This document shows positions 2,536-7,497 of a stretch of DNA of 7,561 bases, one piece after another. How positions within the stretch are numbered: the first letter of the stretch is position 1; every line of letters begins with the position of its first letter. The translations under genes were made by a program, and so were the position numbers. Below the pieces are notes generated by a model. It was not told the origin of the DNA. It was given only the letters and a program-made list of their open reading frames with translations, and searched no databases. Source of the stretch: Bacillota bacterium (GTDB taxonomy: Bacteria > Bacillota_A > Clostridia > Lachnospirales > Lachnospiraceae); NCBI GenBank assembly GCA_023443625.1, contig JAEZTQ010000087.1:1-7561 (forward strand), read 5' to 3'.

Positions 2536-3495
2536 ATGTTTTCTGAGGACAATATTAAATTGGAAGGTAATCAATTTTACAGCATTAAAAATAAGGAACA
2601 GGATTATCCCATGTATCCTAATTACGGGAAAATAACACAATATGAAGAGGTTCCGATTGCAGTACCTGAACAACGTCAAATACGACAGCCTGGCGTTGAA
2701 AAGTTAATGTTACCAAGGCCGATTATAGAAAACTGTAATTATATAGGAAGTGGAAAGCTAAAAGATAAAGTTGCACTTATAACAGGTGGTGATAGTGGTA
2801 TTGGTGCAGCCATAGCAATATCTTTTGCCAAAGAAGGTGCAGATGTTGCCATTTCCTATTTAGACGAGCATGAGGACGCTCATCGAACGAAAAAGAGAGT
2901 CGAAGAATTAGGACGGAGATGCTTACTTTTACCTGGAGATTTAAGGGTAAAAGAACAGTGTATTTTTATCGTTGATAAGACGATTAAAACCTTTGGTAAG
3001 CTTAATATTTTATGCAATCATGTAGGCATACAATTTCAACAGTTAAGCCTACTTGATATCTCAGACGAACAGTTTGATGATACCTTTAAAGTTAATATAT
3101 ATTCACATTTCTATACTACGAGAGCTGCACTCCCCCATTTAAATCCAGGTGATTCAATCATCAATACAGCATCCGTTGTAGCTTATTATGGCAATGATCA
3201 ACTAATTGATTATAGTGCATCGAAATCTGCTATCGTCGGCTTCACCCGTGCACTTGCCAATAATCTGGTAAGTAAAGGTATCCGTGTGAACGCCGTTGCC
3301 CCCGGGCGGGTATGGACTCCGTTAATCCCTTCTAGCTTTTCTGCAGATACCGTTACTCAACCCGGTAACCCTATGCAGCGTAACGGGCAGCCTTTTGAAA
3401 TTGCACCTGCCTATGTTTATCTTGCCTCCGATGATTCACGTTTTGTAACCGGGCAAACAATTCATGTAAATGGTGGTCAGATAACTTCGTCTTAA
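2536..3495 (+). CDS. SDR-family NAD(P)-dependent oxidoreductase, YhxC/YdaD (general stress protein 39) type
   Basis: This is a 319-aa classical short-chain dehydrogenase/reductase with the N-terminal extension typical of the YhxC/YdaD group. The cofactor loop TGGDSGIG is at residues 83-90, the catalytic set is Asn187, Ser213, Tyr226 and Lys230 (in IDYSASK), and the late motif [12 protein letters not shown] spans about 254-265. The usual NNAG strand motif is NHVG here (161-164), a variation that leaves the catalytic residues intact. The extension contains RQPG (50-53) and a proline-rich MYPNYG stretch. The physiological substrate of this group is not established; homologues are linked to general, salt or ethanol stress. 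ATG 2536 has a poor ribosome site; an alternative start at ATG 2611 (294 aa, AGGA seven bases upstream) is nearly as likely, because the conserved part only begins around MYPNYG. The gene stands alone, is cytoplasmic, and has lower GC than the CHR/LysR block upstream. Confidence 0.92.
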
Positions 3496-3616: not shown

Positions 3617-4528
3617 ATGCATGCATGGGAAGCCATACAGAAAACGCTGAATTACATCGAAGAGCATATCGGTGAGGAAATGCAAATCGAGGAGTTGGCA
3701 GAAATTGCCGCACTTTCACTGTTTTATTATCAGCGATTGTTCACGCGATTGGTAAAAACATCGGTCCGGGATTATATAAAATTACGTCGATTGGCAAGGG
3801 CAACCGCTCCGCTGCGTGATAAGAAAAAACATATTATCGACATTGCAATGGAATACGGTTTTGGCAGTCACGAAACTTTTACGCGAGCTTTTAAGGAAAC
3901 TTACGGTATTACCCCATCGCAGTACCGGGATAAACCTGTTAGCTTACAGAATTTTCATAAACCTGATTTACTGCTTGGCTACATAGTGATAGATGAAGGT
4001 GTGCCGCTGATTAGTGACGGATTGGTGCTGGAAATGAACCGAAAATTTCTTGAAGAACCGATTTGTTTTCTCGGTGTGACGGGATATTATCCATTCAAAC
4101 ATGGTAAAATGTCCGGAGAAAGAACCGGTGTCGATACGGTCAGTGAGATTTGGGACAGGTTTTTCGGGGAACTTCCGAATATTCCTCGTGTCTCGAAAGG
4201 ACGTTTGATCGGTGTTTCTTATCACGGCGATGCACCAGACGGTTATTCCAGTTATTTTATTGGAGCAGAAGTCGCAAAAGATAAGGAAAGCCGTAATTTT
4301 GCAAATTGGCAGCTGCCTGTACGGGAATATGTAGTCTGCGGATTCGAGGCAGAGAGTCACGACCAGATGATTATTTGTATGGGAAAAGCGATGAAATACA
4401 CTCGATTTTGGTTGAAAAAGCATGATTTGATTGCCGATGGATTTTTCCCCGAGATGTATTATCAAAATACGTTCGATGTCGCTTATGCGGAGTTGTGGAT
4501 TCCTTTTAAGAAACGGGAAAAGACATAA
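3617..4528 (+). CDS. AraC/XylS-family transcriptional regulator with GyrI-like effector-binding domain
   Basis: This 303-aa protein has the AraC DNA-binding domain at its N-terminus (residues about 4-105). It contains two helix-turn-helix units, one around IEELAEIAALSLFYYQRLF (24-42) and the second from about 73 to 104, ending in the family signature GFGSHETFTRAFKETYGITP followed by SQYR. After a short linker, residues of about 124-300 match the layout of the GyrI-like/AraC effector-binding domain, as in Rob- and BmrR-like small-molecule sensors; the GWQ-like ligand pocket cannot be confirmed by eye. The ATG at 3617 is preferred over an in-frame GTG at 3587: it has GAGGG seven to eight bases upstream, and the GTG lies inside the inverted repeat. 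The gene is followed within 20 bp by the MITE-like element and then by a flavoprotein gene on the same strand, which could be a target or former operon partner, but that is inference. Confidence 0.92.
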   Translation: MHAWEAIQKTLNYIEEHIGEEMQIEELAEIAALSLFYYQRLFTRLVKTSVRDYIKLRRLARATAPLRDKKKHIIDIAMEYGFGSHETFTRAFKETYGITPSQYRDKPVSLQNFHKPDLLLGYIVIDEGVPLISDGLVLEMNRKFLEEPICFLGVTGYYPFKHGKMSGERTGVDTVSEIWDRFFGELPNIPRVSKGRLIGVSYHGDAPDGYSSYFIGAEVAKDKESRNFANWQLPVREYVVCGFEAESHDQMIICMGKAMKYTRFWLKKHDLIADGFFPEMYYQNTFDVAYAELWIPFKKREKT

Positions 4529-4547
4529 GATCAATAAAGTTTAAGTA

Positions 4548-4586
4548 ATTGCGAAACAGATAAGTTGTGAAAATTTCATACACAAC
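4548..4586. repeat. Left terminal inverted repeat of the MITE-like element
   Basis: This 39-bp arm matches the reverse complement of 4771-4809 without gaps: the ten outer bases are identical and so are the fourteen inner bases. It also contains its own small palindrome, GTTGTG/CACAAC. Confidence 0.75.
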
Positions 4587-4762
4587 AAATATAGATGGTA
4601 AAGAAAGATGGTATGAAAGTTTTCCAAGCTCTGGTTATGCCAAGCACTATGCTGAGCCAGAGAAGGAATCCTTTTCAGCAAGGGCTTCAAGGATTCCTAT
4701 GTCTCCGCTCCGTGGCCTAAAATCGCTTGAAAAATCTTTCAAACCATTCTTTCATATTTAAG

Positions 4763-4790
4763 TTGTGCTAGTTGTGTATGAAATTATAAC
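4763..4790 (+). promoter_or_regulatory. Candidate outward promoter at the right end of the MITE-like element
   Basis: TTGTGC (4763-4768) and TATAAC (4785-4790) are separated by 16 bases and point towards the flavoprotein gene. The -10 matches 5/6 but the -35 only 3/6, so this is a weak call. If real, the element supplies transcription to its neighbour. Confidence 0.3.
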
Positions 4791-4809
4791 AGTTGATGAG
4801 TTTCGCAAT
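4771..4809. repeat. Right terminal inverted repeat of the MITE-like element
   Basis: This is the inverted partner of 4548-4586. It ends 37 bp before the start codon of the flavoprotein gene, so the element now makes up most of that gene's upstream region. Confidence 0.75.
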
Positions 4810-4846
4810 CATCTAAATTAATAAAATTAATTGGGAGGAAAATGAA

Positions 4847-5320
4847 ATGAGTATGTATGAAGAGGGATTAAAATTAATTGATGAGGCATTCGGCAATGGA
4901 AAGGATAATAACATCTCGCTGGCGACAATTGCGCTTGAGCCGAGTATAGACGGAAAACCTTGCCCTAACGTCCGTGTTGTGGACGCTTATTATGAAGACG
5001 GCGCATTTTATGTTGTCACATATGGAAAATCGAACAAAATGCAGGAAATTGCACAAAACTCGGAAGTTTCAATTGCGGCTTGTCATGAGATGTTTACTGC
5101 TTGCGGAGTAGGTGAAAATCTCGGTTGGGTGCTCGACCCTATAAATGCTGAAATAAGAAACAAGCTTCGTAAAGCCTTTTCCGATTGGTACGACATGGCA
5201 AATAATGAAAAGGATGAAAACTGCGTTTTTTTAGCAATTCATCTCACAAAGGGAATTTTAAATGTAAACCATTGGGAAAAACTATATCACATGGATTTTA
5301 CCAATAAGACTTGCCAATAA
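4847..5320 (+). CDS. Pyridoxamine 5'-phosphate oxidase-family (split-barrel FMN-binding) protein
   Basis: This 157-aa protein has the small single-domain layout of the PNPOx-like split-barrel flavoproteins. The barrel strands read NISLATIAL (22-30), CPNVRVVDAYYEDGAFYVVT (39-58) and EVSIAAC (73-79), with a KSNKMQEIAQ helix between the last two, a typical FMN-phosphate region. True PdxH enzymes are about 210 aa and carry a C-terminal dimerisation segment that is absent here, so a vitamin B6 oxidase role should not be assumed; small members bind FMN, F420 or haem and reduce or oxidise varied substrates, often without known function. Start ATG 4847 has GGGAGG eight bases upstream; an ATG at 4842 meets a stop after two codons. 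The gene is monocistronic, flanked by the MITE-like element before it and a terminator after it. A cytoplasmic location is expected, as no signal peptide is seen. Confidence 0.88.
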   Translation: MSMYEEGLKLIDEAFGNGKDNNISLATIALEPSIDGKPCPNVRVVDAYYEDGAFYVVTYGKSNKMQEIAQNSEVSIAACHEMFTACGVGENLGWVLDPINAEIRNKLRKAFSDWYDMANNEKDENCVFLAIHLTKGILNVNHWEKLYHMDFTNKTCQ

Positions 5321-5340
5321 GACAGAATTTGAGTATTTTT

Positions 5341-5383
5341 AGGGGCACTTTCCAATTGAAAATTTGGTCAGTGTCCTTTTGTT
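5341..5383 (+). terminator. Rho-independent terminator after the flavoprotein gene
   Basis: AGGGGCACT (5341-5349) pairs with AGTGTCCTT (5370-5378) over nine positions including two G-U pairs, with an inner CCAA/TTGG stem, followed by a T-rich tract (TTTTGTT). It starts 20 bp after the stop codon of the flavoprotein gene, the right place and orientation for its transcript end. Confidence 0.7.
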
Positions 5384-5482
5384 ATGGTCGAAAACAATGA
5401 AGACAGTGCCCAATGAGTTATGATCTGAGCTCCGTAATGTTAAGAAAACGGGCATAAATGAGAAGTGCTGTTGGTAGATTTC

Positions 5483-5494
5483 TATCCATATATC
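5483..5494. repeat. Direct repeat, left copy, at the IS boundary
   Basis: TATCCATATATC is repeated exactly at 7205-7216. It overlaps the first three bases of the left inverted repeat. It may mark similar target and donor sequences at the two junctions, or be a chance AT-rich match. Confidence 0.45.
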
Positions 5495-5502
5495 ACCTAT
5501 AC
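5492..5502. repeat. Left subterminal inverted repeat of the IS110-family element
   Basis: ATCACCTATAC is the exact reverse complement of 7095-7105. It lies 138 bases before the transposase start codon and directly after the TAT that may be the insertion core. Confidence 0.65.
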
Positions 5503-5623
5503 TTGGTTTACATATAAAAAGAAGGAGCATTCCTGTTAAGTAACAAATGACAGGTTTGCAAAAAATGAGTGCCACCCATAGAATAATGATTGTTAACTGG
5601 CCGGTTGACAAAATCATCGTTCG

Positions 5624-5630
5624 AAGGAGA
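5624..5630 (+). promoter_or_regulatory. Ribosome binding site of the transposase gene
   Basis: AAGGAGA lies nine bases before ATG 5640 and decides that start over the in-frame ATG at 5547. A TTGACA hexamer (5605-5610) is too close to the gene to have a useful -10 box. Confidence 0.75.
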
Positions 5631-5639
5631 CACCCACAA

Positions 5640-6917
5640 ATGAATTGTAAACAAAATCAAAAAATCAATCAAGTAAAAGAATCAACTTTGGTAGTTGGAA
5701 TCGATATCGGAAGTACAACACAGTACGCCAGAGCTTTTGACTGGCGAGGCATCGAATTAGGGAAGGTCTTTAAATTTAGCAACAGCAGAGAAGGTTTTGA
5801 CAGCTTCAAAAACTGGATGCAGTGGATACAGGACAAGAACAAAAAGTCAGATGTTATCGTAGGTATCGAACCAACAGGTCACTACTGGTTTGACCTTGGC
5901 GCTTATCTTGAAGATGAAGGCATCCTCCTGGTTATGGTCAACCCTTATGCGGTAAAGCAGACCAAGGAACTGGATGACAACAGCCAAAGTAAGAATGACA
6001 GCAAGGATCCCAAGGTAATCGCAAAACTCGTTATAGAAGGAAGATATTGTGCACCATATACACCGGATGGGGTGTATGCAGATCTAAGAATTATGGCAGC
6101 GAATCGGAAGAGGCTTATCAGGGAACTTACCCAGATCAAGAACAGATTTGCCAGATGGTTTGCCATATACTTTCCTGAATATAAAGATGTATTCGGGGAT
6201 TATGAATCACAAAGCAGTATGCTGCTTCTAAAGAAAGCATGTACACCTGAAGCAATCGTGGGACTCGGAGCCGAGAATATAAATCAAATCTGGCGTGATG
6301 CAAAACTGCGGGCTGTCGGGATGAAAAGGGCAACGACCCTGTGCGAGACAGCAAAGCGTAGCATTGGCCTAAAGAAAGGCTCTTCGGCAGCTGAGTATGA
6401 AATGAAACTACTGCTCGAGGATCATGATTACAAAATGGCACAGCTTGAATCTGTTATGGAAGAAATAGAAGGCTTGTGTAAAAAGATACCCGAAAGCGAG
6501 CAGATGCTTGCCATCAAAGGTATCGGACTGATTACGGTTGCCGGATTTCTGGCTGAGATCGGTGATGCGAGGCGTTTCGAATCACCAAGGCAGATACAAA
6601 AGCTGGCAGGACTCTCGTTAAGGGAAAATAGTTCAGGAAAGCATAAAGGACAGACGACCATAAGCAAACGAGGTCGAAGTAAGCTGCGAGCTGTACTGTT
6701 CAATGCTGCGATTCCACTGATAGCTACGAACCCGGAGTTCAATGCCCTGCATGAGTATTATACGACCAGAGCAAATAATCCACTGAAAAAGAAGCAATCC
6801 GTGATAGCCATCAGCTGTAAGCTGATACGAATCTTTTATACTATTTTGACCAAAGGTGTATCGTATGATGCACAAAAGATGATGTCTGACATACACAGAC
6901 AGCCAGCGATAGCATAA
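5640..6917 (+). CDS. IS110-family transposase (DEDD, RNA-guided recombinase type)
   Basis: This 425-aa protein is complete and of usual family length. The N-terminal RuvC-like DEDD domain shows Asp22 (GIDIG), Glu77 (GIEPTGHYW), Asp120 and Asp123 (KNDSKDPKVIAKL). A long helical middle region (about 155-285) leads to the C-terminal Transposase_20 domain, which begins at MLAIKGIGLITVAGFLAEIG (289-308) and includes GLSLRENSSGKHKG (324-337) and SKRGRSKLRAVL (342-353). The nucleophilic serine of the family is probably Ser331 or Ser332 before that glycine. IS110-family enzymes excise the element as a circle and insert it at a short core chosen by an IS-encoded bridge RNA. ATG 5640 is chosen over a possible ATG at 5547 because AAGGAGA (5624-5630) lies nine bases before it and family similarity starts only after it. 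No frameshift or missing catalytic residue is seen, so the element may be active. Confidence 0.96.
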   Translation: MNCKQNQKINQVKESTLVVGIDIGSTTQYARAFDWRGIELGKVFKFSNSREGFDSFKNWMQWIQDKNKKSDVIVGIEPTGHYWFDLGAYLEDEGILLVMVNPYAVKQTKELDDNSQSKNDSKDPKVIAKLVIEGRYCAPYTPDGVYADLRIMAANRKRLIRELTQIKNRFARWFAIYFPEYKDVFGDYESQSSMLLLKKACTPEAIVGLGAENINQIWRDAKLRAVGMKRATTLCETAKRSIGLKKGSSAAEYEMKLLLEDHDYKMAQLESVMEEIEGLCKKIPESEQMLAIKGIGLITVAGFLAEIGDARRFESPRQIQKLAGLSLRENSSGKHKGQTTISKRGRSKLRAVLFNAAIPLIATNPEFNALHEYYTTRANNPLKKKQSVIAISCKLIRIFYTILTKGVSYDAQKMMSDIHRQPAIA

Positions 6918-7094
6918 GAGGAAAACTGTAGAATTCAGGAAGACGTCCACCCTAAGGTGCTGAATGGAACAGAAAAAGAAACAAAACATAGAGAGCCGAA
7001 GTCAGATTTTTCACCATCAGAGCAGAGACTCAGCGAAGGAGCATCATGACGCCCCTTTATGGATAAGCAGAACGAAGGAATTCAGGACCCTGAG
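6918..7094 (+). ncRNA. Candidate bridge RNA/seekRNA region at the right end of the IS
   Basis: This non-coding stretch between the transposase stop and the right inverted repeat is where IS1111-type elements encode their guide RNA. It can fold locally: ATTCAG (6933-6938) pairs with CTGAAT (6960-6965), enclosing CACC-CTAA-GGTG (6948-6959); TCAG-GACC-CTGA forms a second hairpin at 7082-7093. A 10-bp direct repeat, GAATTCAGGA, occurs at 6931-6940 and 7078-7087 and roughly brackets the region. Bases 7046-7065 contain two short segments matching the reconstructed target on opposite strands. The precise ends and the donor-binding loop were not found, and transcription is not shown, so the RNA call is an inference from family and position. 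Confidence 0.45.
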
Positions 7095-7105
7095 GTATAG
7101 GTGAT
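7095..7105. repeat. Right subterminal inverted repeat of the IS110-family element
   Basis: GTATAGGTGAT is the perfect inverted copy of 5492-5502. If it is subterminal as in IS1111 elements, the element ends within a few bases to its right, near 7109-7112. Confidence 0.6.
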
Positions 7106-7171
7106 CCCGTATGACATGGGAGGTTGGGCTGCCGTAAGGATTTGGGGATAAGGAAAGGCCGATCATAACAA

Positions 7172-7190
7172 AATAAGACGACGTCTTATT
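7172..7190. repeat. Near-perfect 19-bp palindrome
   Basis: AATAAGACG and CGTCTTATT are perfect 9-bp arms around a single central A. The site is nested in a longer stem (ATTTGGGG 7140-7147 with CCCCAAAT 7198-7205). It could be a protein-binding dyad, a recombination-site dyad or part of an RNA fold. Confidence 0.5.
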
Positions 7191-7204
7191 AAGTGAACCC
7201 CAAA

Positions 7205-7216
7205 TATCCATATATC
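7205..7216. repeat. Direct repeat, right copy, possible alternative IS end
   Basis: This is an exact second copy of 5483-5494. If it is the true right junction, the element would be about 1.72 kb and would include the G-rich stretch and palindromes from 7106 to 7204. Confidence 0.45.
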
Positions 7217-7335
7217 CATGATTTAAGGCCATGGGGAATGACATTGACGAAGAATGCGGTTCTATAAAAAAATGAAAAAGTAAGAAAAAGCGAGTTAACA
7301 AGAGAAAAATTAAGATAATTATGGGAGGCGTTCAA

Positions 7336-7497
7336 GTGACAAATGAAATACGCTTGAACTGCTGGCTTATGATAAAAAATGTGGTAGATGTGATGAAAGA
7401 TTACCTTGAGATATTTGCCTATCAAATAATTATGACATTTAGTGGAACCGGGATGCTCAAAAAAGGCAGGAATCCGTTTTTGAATTCCCGCCTTTAA
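7336..7497 (+). CDS. Possible small ORF, 53 aa, of unknown function
   Basis: A GTG at 7336 with GGGAGG (7323-7328) seven bases upstream opens a 53-codon frame starting MTNEIRLNCWLMIKNVVDVM and ending NPFLNSRL. I recognise no family. The hydrophobic-amphipathic first 35 residues look protein-like, but the last dozen codons lie inside the terminator hairpin at 7462-7495, which argues that the frame is either a truncated gene or fortuitous. The start codon lies within an inverted repeat (GTTCAAG 7330-7336, CTTGAAC 7353-7359), which could hide the ribosome site region. Confidence 0.3.
   Translation: MTNEIRLNCWLMIKNVVDVMKDYLEIFAYQIIMTFSGTGMLKKGRNPFLNSRL

Follow-up and report, generated by a model that had tools for sequence, protein, structure and literature searches.

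The window, by which we mean the whole 7,561-nt stretch of Lachnospiraceae DNA that was analysed, appears from comparison with homologous copies to contain an IS110-family element of ~1.8 kb at 5528-7327. We consider it very probable that this element carries a bispecific guide RNA in its 3' region, inserts codirectionally into Shine-Dalgarno sites and rebuilds the ribosome-binding site with its own right end. The following features could be delineated:

5524-5527, plus strand: left-junction core GGAG, forming the left portion of AAGGAGG, the Shine-Dalgarno sequence that the element interrupts (junction comparison)
5528-5639, plus strand: 112 nt comprising the left end and a short non-coding stretch 5' of the transposase gene, beginning CATTCCTGTTAA (ends of close relatives)
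5640-6917, plus strand: IS110-family DEDD transposase/recombinase, 425 aa (domain matches)
6918-7323, plus strand: long 3' non-coding region encoding the predicted guide RNA (conservation)
7001-7050, plus strand: target-binding loop with closing stem GTCA (7001-7004) / TGAC (7047-7050)
7010-7015, plus strand: right-target guide (RTG), predicted to pair through its CC with the final GG of GGAGG and through the bases preceding CC with the right flank
7034-7041, plus strand: left-target guide (LTG) CGAAGGAG, in the same sense as left flank plus GGAG, predicted to pair with the bottom strand
about 7056-7137, plus strand: donor-binding region, stem TTATGG/CCGTAA with nested pairs (predicted pairing)
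7076-7081, plus strand: right-donor guide (RDG) AGGAAT, complementary to left-end ATTCCT
7116-7122, plus strand: left-donor guide (LDG) ATGGGAG, in the same sense as the right end TATGGGAG
7324-7328, plus strand: GGAG core at the right junction and next target G, with GGGAGG re-formed before the downstream gene (junction comparison)
7336-7494, plus strand: downstream open reading frame, GTG start, 53 aa, without Pfam match; the element targets its putative ribosome-binding site

The transposase matches the profiles DEDD_Tnp_IS110 (1.1e-29), Transposase_20 (3.2e-24) and NF033542 (2.4e-64), thus combining the DEDD RuvC-like N-terminal domain with the Transposase_20 C-terminal domain as is typical of the IS110 family, and resembles the IS621 and ISCro4 recombinases. 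As in this family, no terminal inverted repeats were found when the outer 40 nt of both ends were searched for exact repeats in 18 elements: the longest exact inverted repeat between the ends measured 4-10 nt in 18/18 elements and in none exceeded the maximum of that element's own shuffles. The same search returned no subterminal inverted repeats of the kind described for IS1111 (~11-13 bp), and the element was therefore not filed in IS1111. It further differs from IS1111 in its target, here a Shine-Dalgarno sequence, and in transposase length (425 aa versus 330-350 aa in the accessible part of PMC11187229). Non-coding DNA around the transposase gene amounts to 112 nt upstream versus ~410 nt downstream, the long region thus lying on the downstream side as in the IS1111 group. 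The element may belong to the IS110-type elements with a downstream non-coding region that are named in the same part of PMC11187229, with which it shares the long 3' non-coding region, and its 425 aa lie within the 395-455 aa given there for the subgroup of IS110 itself.

The ends were located by comparison of homologous copies. BLAST matches of full-length close relatives to the window begin at 5513-5524 and end at 7328-7335, where anything beyond 5523-7328 represents short extensions by chance. The left end reads GGAGCATTCCTGT in 19/19 and the right end TATGGGAGG in 22/22 of the close relatives having the respective end, with unrelated sequence outside. At the left junction of the element ...GGAG is followed by CATTCC, at the right junction TATGGGAG by G; the core GGAG is thus common to both, and the sequence does not say which copy is the target's. 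Pairwise comparison of more remote relatives, whose proteins are 49-60% identical to that of the window, mostly gave the same end pattern, e.g. GGAGCTTCCTGTA at the left end and TATAGGGAG followed by G at the right end, with the L051/L054 pair showing GAAAGCATTCC in its place and some pairs being interrupted by contig ends. An earlier note on this DNA had proposed TAT-bounded ends, with the right end near 7110, and a target-binding loop at 7045-7065. The strings on which it relied are present as given (TATCCATA at 5483-5490, TATGGATA at 7058-7065, ATGAC at 7046-7050 and 7111-7115, TAT at 5489-5491 and 7110-7112). However, homology of the close relatives continues up to 7328, which places the right end ~215 bp past 7110-7112 and leaves no TAT core. 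Since the relatives' ends correspond to 5528 and 7327, 5483-5490 belongs to the host, over 30 bp away from the element, and 7110-7115 is internal, so that the empty site TATCCATATGACATGGG reconstructed from these flanks is not supported. The proposed guide TATGGATA is kept in place in 21/21 aligned relatives at unrelated sites, constancy of 7046-7065 at unrelated targets being the very outcome that the note had named as speaking against it, and its supposed target half TATCCATA was found in 0/16 relatives in the 80 nt preceding the left end. Together, these observations leave the TAT-bounded model with next to no probability. The reverse complement of TATGGATA also occurs inside the element, at 7205-7212. 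Of the loop at 7045-7065, the location stands in part, as it overlaps two stems, the target-loop stem in its 3' arm (7047-7050) and the predicted donor stem in its 5' arm, but the guides lie elsewhere, the LTG just to its left and the RTG at 7010-7015. For IS110 elements, ends should consequently be called by comparison of homologous copies before they are called by eye.

We propose a mechanism in which one RNA loop would pair with both target strands and the other with both element ends. The 5' side of the target loop would complement the right target on the top strand, its 3' side would match the left target and pair with the bottom strand, and both sides would include the core within GGAG. 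To follow guides and DNA partners through natural copies, we collected 101 relative loci (L001-L101), at least 80 from genomes and 21 from viral contigs, giving 102 sequences with the window. Eleven loci without RNA anchor were dropped (L002, L019, L033, L044, L051, L052, L061, L084, L094, L099 and L100), and L050 and L096 stayed unparsed, as did a spurious second hit in L075, leaving 89 parsed elements. In these, each of the four guide segments changes in step with its DNA partner.

The left-target guide could be established firmly. Over the first 18 loci, the left flank agreed at 42/72 positions with the four RNA bases that precede GGAGC, versus 28.4 after shuffling (p 6e-5). Over 77 sites distinct by flank (89 elements minus 8 without left end and 4 with too little flank), matches at -5, -6, -7 and -8 number 71, 61, 45 and 25, with 6/77 flanks mismatching the guide at -5; only -5 and beyond count as a test, since the script was anchored on GAGC/AAGC. 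Positions -5 to -7 yield 177/231 matches versus 119.4 in group-stratified shuffles, a value reached by 0 of 20,000. The signal is confined to a single register (z = 10.3 over the 77 sites), no excess being observed when the guide is shifted elsewhere between -4 and +4, read as complement or compared with the right flank. The window's own left flank AGAAGGAG matches its LTG at 7/8 positions, including all of -5 to -7.

For the right-target guide, our confidence is moderate. An earlier register taken from MAFFT columns, in which group B was misaligned, gave 88/237 versus 81 (p 0.14); the register was then reset by finding the CC beside the hairpin with a regular expression, and the test was repeated. 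Positions R2-R4 are complementary to the right flank in 108/237 cases versus 82.3 expected, and 0 of 20,000 stratified shuffles attained 108. A register scan over 79 sites gave z 4.1 at shift 0 (reached by 1 of 3,000) and z 2.3 for the complement at shift +1; the same-sense control at shift 0 gave z 2.6 (p 0.005). In group C alone the effect was not significant (23/57, p 0.30), and the window's right flank CGT matches its own RTG at 1/3 tested bases.

If the recombinase protein itself read AGGAGG, the likeness of the RNA would be ancestral or structural and would play no role in targeting. GGAG is near-constant in target and RNA, and the core alone can accordingly not discriminate between this explanation and guidance by RNA. 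However, target bases beyond the core vary together with the RNA, at a single register and against shuffles within three groups, and changes of the core itself are shared by guide and flank, as seen in the retargeted elements L018 and L054 (GAAAG in both) and L046 (GACGAG in both). RNA guidance has additionally been demonstrated experimentally for other family members (accessible parts of PMC11187229 and PMC11208160). Recognition by the protein alone is therefore very improbable. L096 is likewise retargeted, with CGTTAGAA in both guide and flank. Disagreements between guide and flank are found in L092 (flank GAAG versus guide GGAG), L057 (AGAG) and L066 (mismatch at -5).

Covariation of this kind could also arise as an artefact of relatedness, if the same insertion had been inherited by related genomes, and guides are indeed shared within groups whose hosts are mostly related. 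Against this, the 77 left sites are distinct by flank, the shuffles were stratified by group, the left signal is lost on a register shift of one base, and copies in the same genome share a guide at different sites (L004-L006 are three copies in one genome with identical guide and three sites). We therefore regard such an artefact as highly improbable and retain guidance by the RNA as the preferred reading.

The donor guides follow the element ends in the same manner. GGAAT in the RDG is found with ATTCC, or GGAAG with CTTCC, in 80/81 left ends, L071 being the exception. The two variable bases of the LDG equal those of the right end in 82/82 elements (GG 68, AG 12, GA 2), a count less stringent than it appears, since some of the positions compared are restricted to purines by the right-end and donor patterns. 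The counts for both donor guides represent non-independent events. The clearest single step is provided by the sister pair L038/L040 (91% nucleotide identity), in which guide and end differ together.

The 3' non-coding DNA is strongly conserved among relatives. The consensus fold of 14 close sequences shows the GTCA/TGAC loop around a small hairpin, followed by a second stem region; in the window, the hairpin GAG/CTC (7020-7022 / 7029-7031) divides the target loop. Alignment A2 was partly misaligned between groups in the right-guide region and its fold lacked the closing stem of the target loop, hence this stem was tested separately. It differs between groups with both arms changed (GTCA/TGAC, GTCGGC/GCTGAC, GCCGC/GCGGC, GCTGC/GCAGC) and reaches at least 4 bp in 44/47 distinct loops, where shuffled controls average 3.75 bp. 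In a 32-sequence alignment, two-sided changes were observed at 7/16 consensus pairs, located in the donor stem and the target-loop hairpin, with one hairpin pair exchanged between G-C and A-U by two-sided change in 12/32 sequences. Single-sequence folding of the target loop from five loci gave z values of 1.05, 1.05, -0.94, -1.26 and -2.62, and the window's loop folded alone (z 1.05) is not better than its shuffles. The guide RNA region returned no Rfam family at gathering threshold. We additionally note a possible extra stem ATTTGGGG/CCCCAAAT around a hairpin AATAAGACG/CGTCTTATT at 7140-7205, 3' of the donor region, which competes with the CCCC/GGGG pairing of the 14-sequence consensus fold. 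From guide/DNA covariation and conserved pairing, the earlier suggestion that the non-coding DNA of the right end encodes an IS110-family guide RNA gains support, as does, from the LTG and RTG tests, that of one guide per target strand.

Most right flanks consist of a short spacer and then a start codon. A site was scored when ATG, GTG or TTG followed 4-14 nt after GGAG and opened a frame of at least 40 codons, shorter frames being accepted if they had at least 15 codons and remained open to the end of the available DNA. By script, 62 of 80 distinct sites qualified, 54 of them with ATG, and 18 had no qualifying start codon and frame; the script found no right end for 7 of the 89 elements, and one of these, L047, was inspected by eye. 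Backgrounds from both strands of the same flanks were 205/558 for GGAGG, 102/199 for AGGAGG, 505/2246 for GGAG and 1507/11200 for random positions. From these counts, the site can be identified as a Shine-Dalgarno sequence, with the enrichment for start codon and frame following in part from the motif itself. Nine of ten downstream proteins match Pfam, that of L077 under the curated cut-off, the window's 53-aa frame being the one without a match. For six of them (a TPP enzyme, two Fe-alcohol dehydrogenases, a nitroreductase, an FGGY kinase and a Phd antitoxin) the match lies above the cut-off and starts at one of residues 1-9, consistent with a native start. The elements of L012 and L077 both lie upstream of Phd/YefM-like antitoxin genes.

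In L047, a record from a metagenome assembly, the element sits between an amino-acid-kinase-family gene and frr, which encodes ribosome recycling factor and is generally essential, exactly at the frr ribosome-binding site; the neighbours presumably reflect the pyrH-frr gene order. Among 61 genomes searched, a paralogous unoccupied site (L174) in the genome of L006 itself displays an uninterrupted AGGAGG with similar leader and start, and another paralogue of the L006 site (L173) has no GGAGG at the corresponding place. No orthologous empty site was found for L001 in 61 genomes, nor for the window's own copy in 397 genomes.

The preference for ribosome-binding sites might partly reflect survivorship, with a guide that reads the purine motif anywhere and intragenic insertions being lost, which would be compatible with our main reading. 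AGGAGG in the flanks by itself precedes start codon and frame in 102/199 cases, as this explanation would have it; among standing rather than fresh insertions, however, ATG follows at 54/80 sites versus 84/199 AGGAGG motifs. We regard a contribution of survivorship as possible, if somewhat doubtful. In the RNA-guided model that we prefer, production of the RNA, its binding by the transposase and its control over target choice are inferred: as the guide spells (N)NGGAG, insertion would occur into Shine-Dalgarno sequences and codirectionally with the gene, and as the right end supplies GGGAG, a ribosome-binding site would remain before this gene and its expression could continue.

In group B, joining of right and left ends, as in the circular intermediate with abutted ends that characterises the IS110 family, would create a TTGACA-17-TATAAT-like promoter scoring 9-12 of 12 in 35/35 elements (e.g. 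L053, L070). For the 19 junctions of group A and the 20 of group C, scores of 6-8 were obtained, comparable to those of their integrated junctions, and a near-consensus junction promoter is absent in the window's group. Since the group-A junction promoter does not rise above controls, landing behind a host promoter may aid expression.

In the remaining window, genes at 3-1142, 1255-2136, 2536-3495 and 3617-4528 are of ordinary kinds: two, on the minus strand, for chromate transporters, and one each for a LysR regulator, a short-chain dehydrogenase and an AraC-type regulator. Between the AraC-type regulator gene and the next open reading frame (4847-5320, without Pfam match), ~280 bp at 4540-4817 are bounded by 47-nt imperfect inverted repeats (79% complementary) and resemble a small non-autonomous element of the MITE type. 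Two short stretches of the left flank, at 5338-5397 and 5436-5510, recur in other genomes of the family with 77-89% identity, so that the IS110-family element may adjoin an older mobile-element remnant.

Compared to known systems, the element combines features of two guide RNA types. The IS621 bridge RNA likewise has a target and a donor loop, each with two guides for opposite strands, and a related recombinase, but the RNA resides in the left end of IS621 and in the right end here, with reversed guide order (accessible part of PMC11208160). In IS621-type RNAs the guide pairing with the bottom strand comes first, which is not the case in the window. The departure from IS621 seen in the earlier note is thereby borne out, and reading the RNA from the other strand, which in the note's view would have fitted IS621 better, is unneeded, since the order is that described for IS1111 seekRNAs in the accessible part of PMC11187229. 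There, too, the top-strand complement lies 5' of the bottom-strand match, a likeness that here depends on the weaker RTG; relatives are naturally retargeted; and in the IS1111-group elements with 3' seekRNA (ISEc11, ISPa11, ISKpn4) the guide RNA is located downstream of the transposase gene. The relatives collected here form a natural set in which guides occur together with their matching targets and donors, and in which an IS110-family protein without subterminal repeats is combined with IS1111-type RNA order.

A precedent for the targeting of translation start signals is IS900 of Mycobacterium avium subsp. paratuberculosis, a host distant from that of the window by phylum; going by the title of Doran et al. 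1997, IS900 reportedly targets translation initiation signals. Like the window's element, it belongs to the IS110 family; its target motif is given in PMC8141618 as CATGNNNNNNTCTCCTT, with complement AAGGAGANNNNNNCATG, but the printed motif suggests the opposite orientation to the gene, and the accessible part of that paper describes no guide RNA. An RNA guide for a Shine-Dalgarno target was found neither in titles and abstract openings on IS110, bridge RNA and seekRNA among the matches listed nor in the accessible running text of PMC7823733 and PMC7288454.

On balance, it seems somewhat more probable than otherwise that in a whole clade of these elements, seen here mostly in Lachnospiraceae and other Clostridia, the programmed target has become fixed as the Shine-Dalgarno sequence, so that they insert codirectionally behind host promoters and rebuild the ribosome-binding site. 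This would allow them to sit in operons, even before frr, with transcription provided by the host. For an IS110 subgroup, target choice would thereby be linked to an RNA which spells the ribosome-binding site, and the mechanism may extend to the old report of IS900 targeting translation initiation signals.
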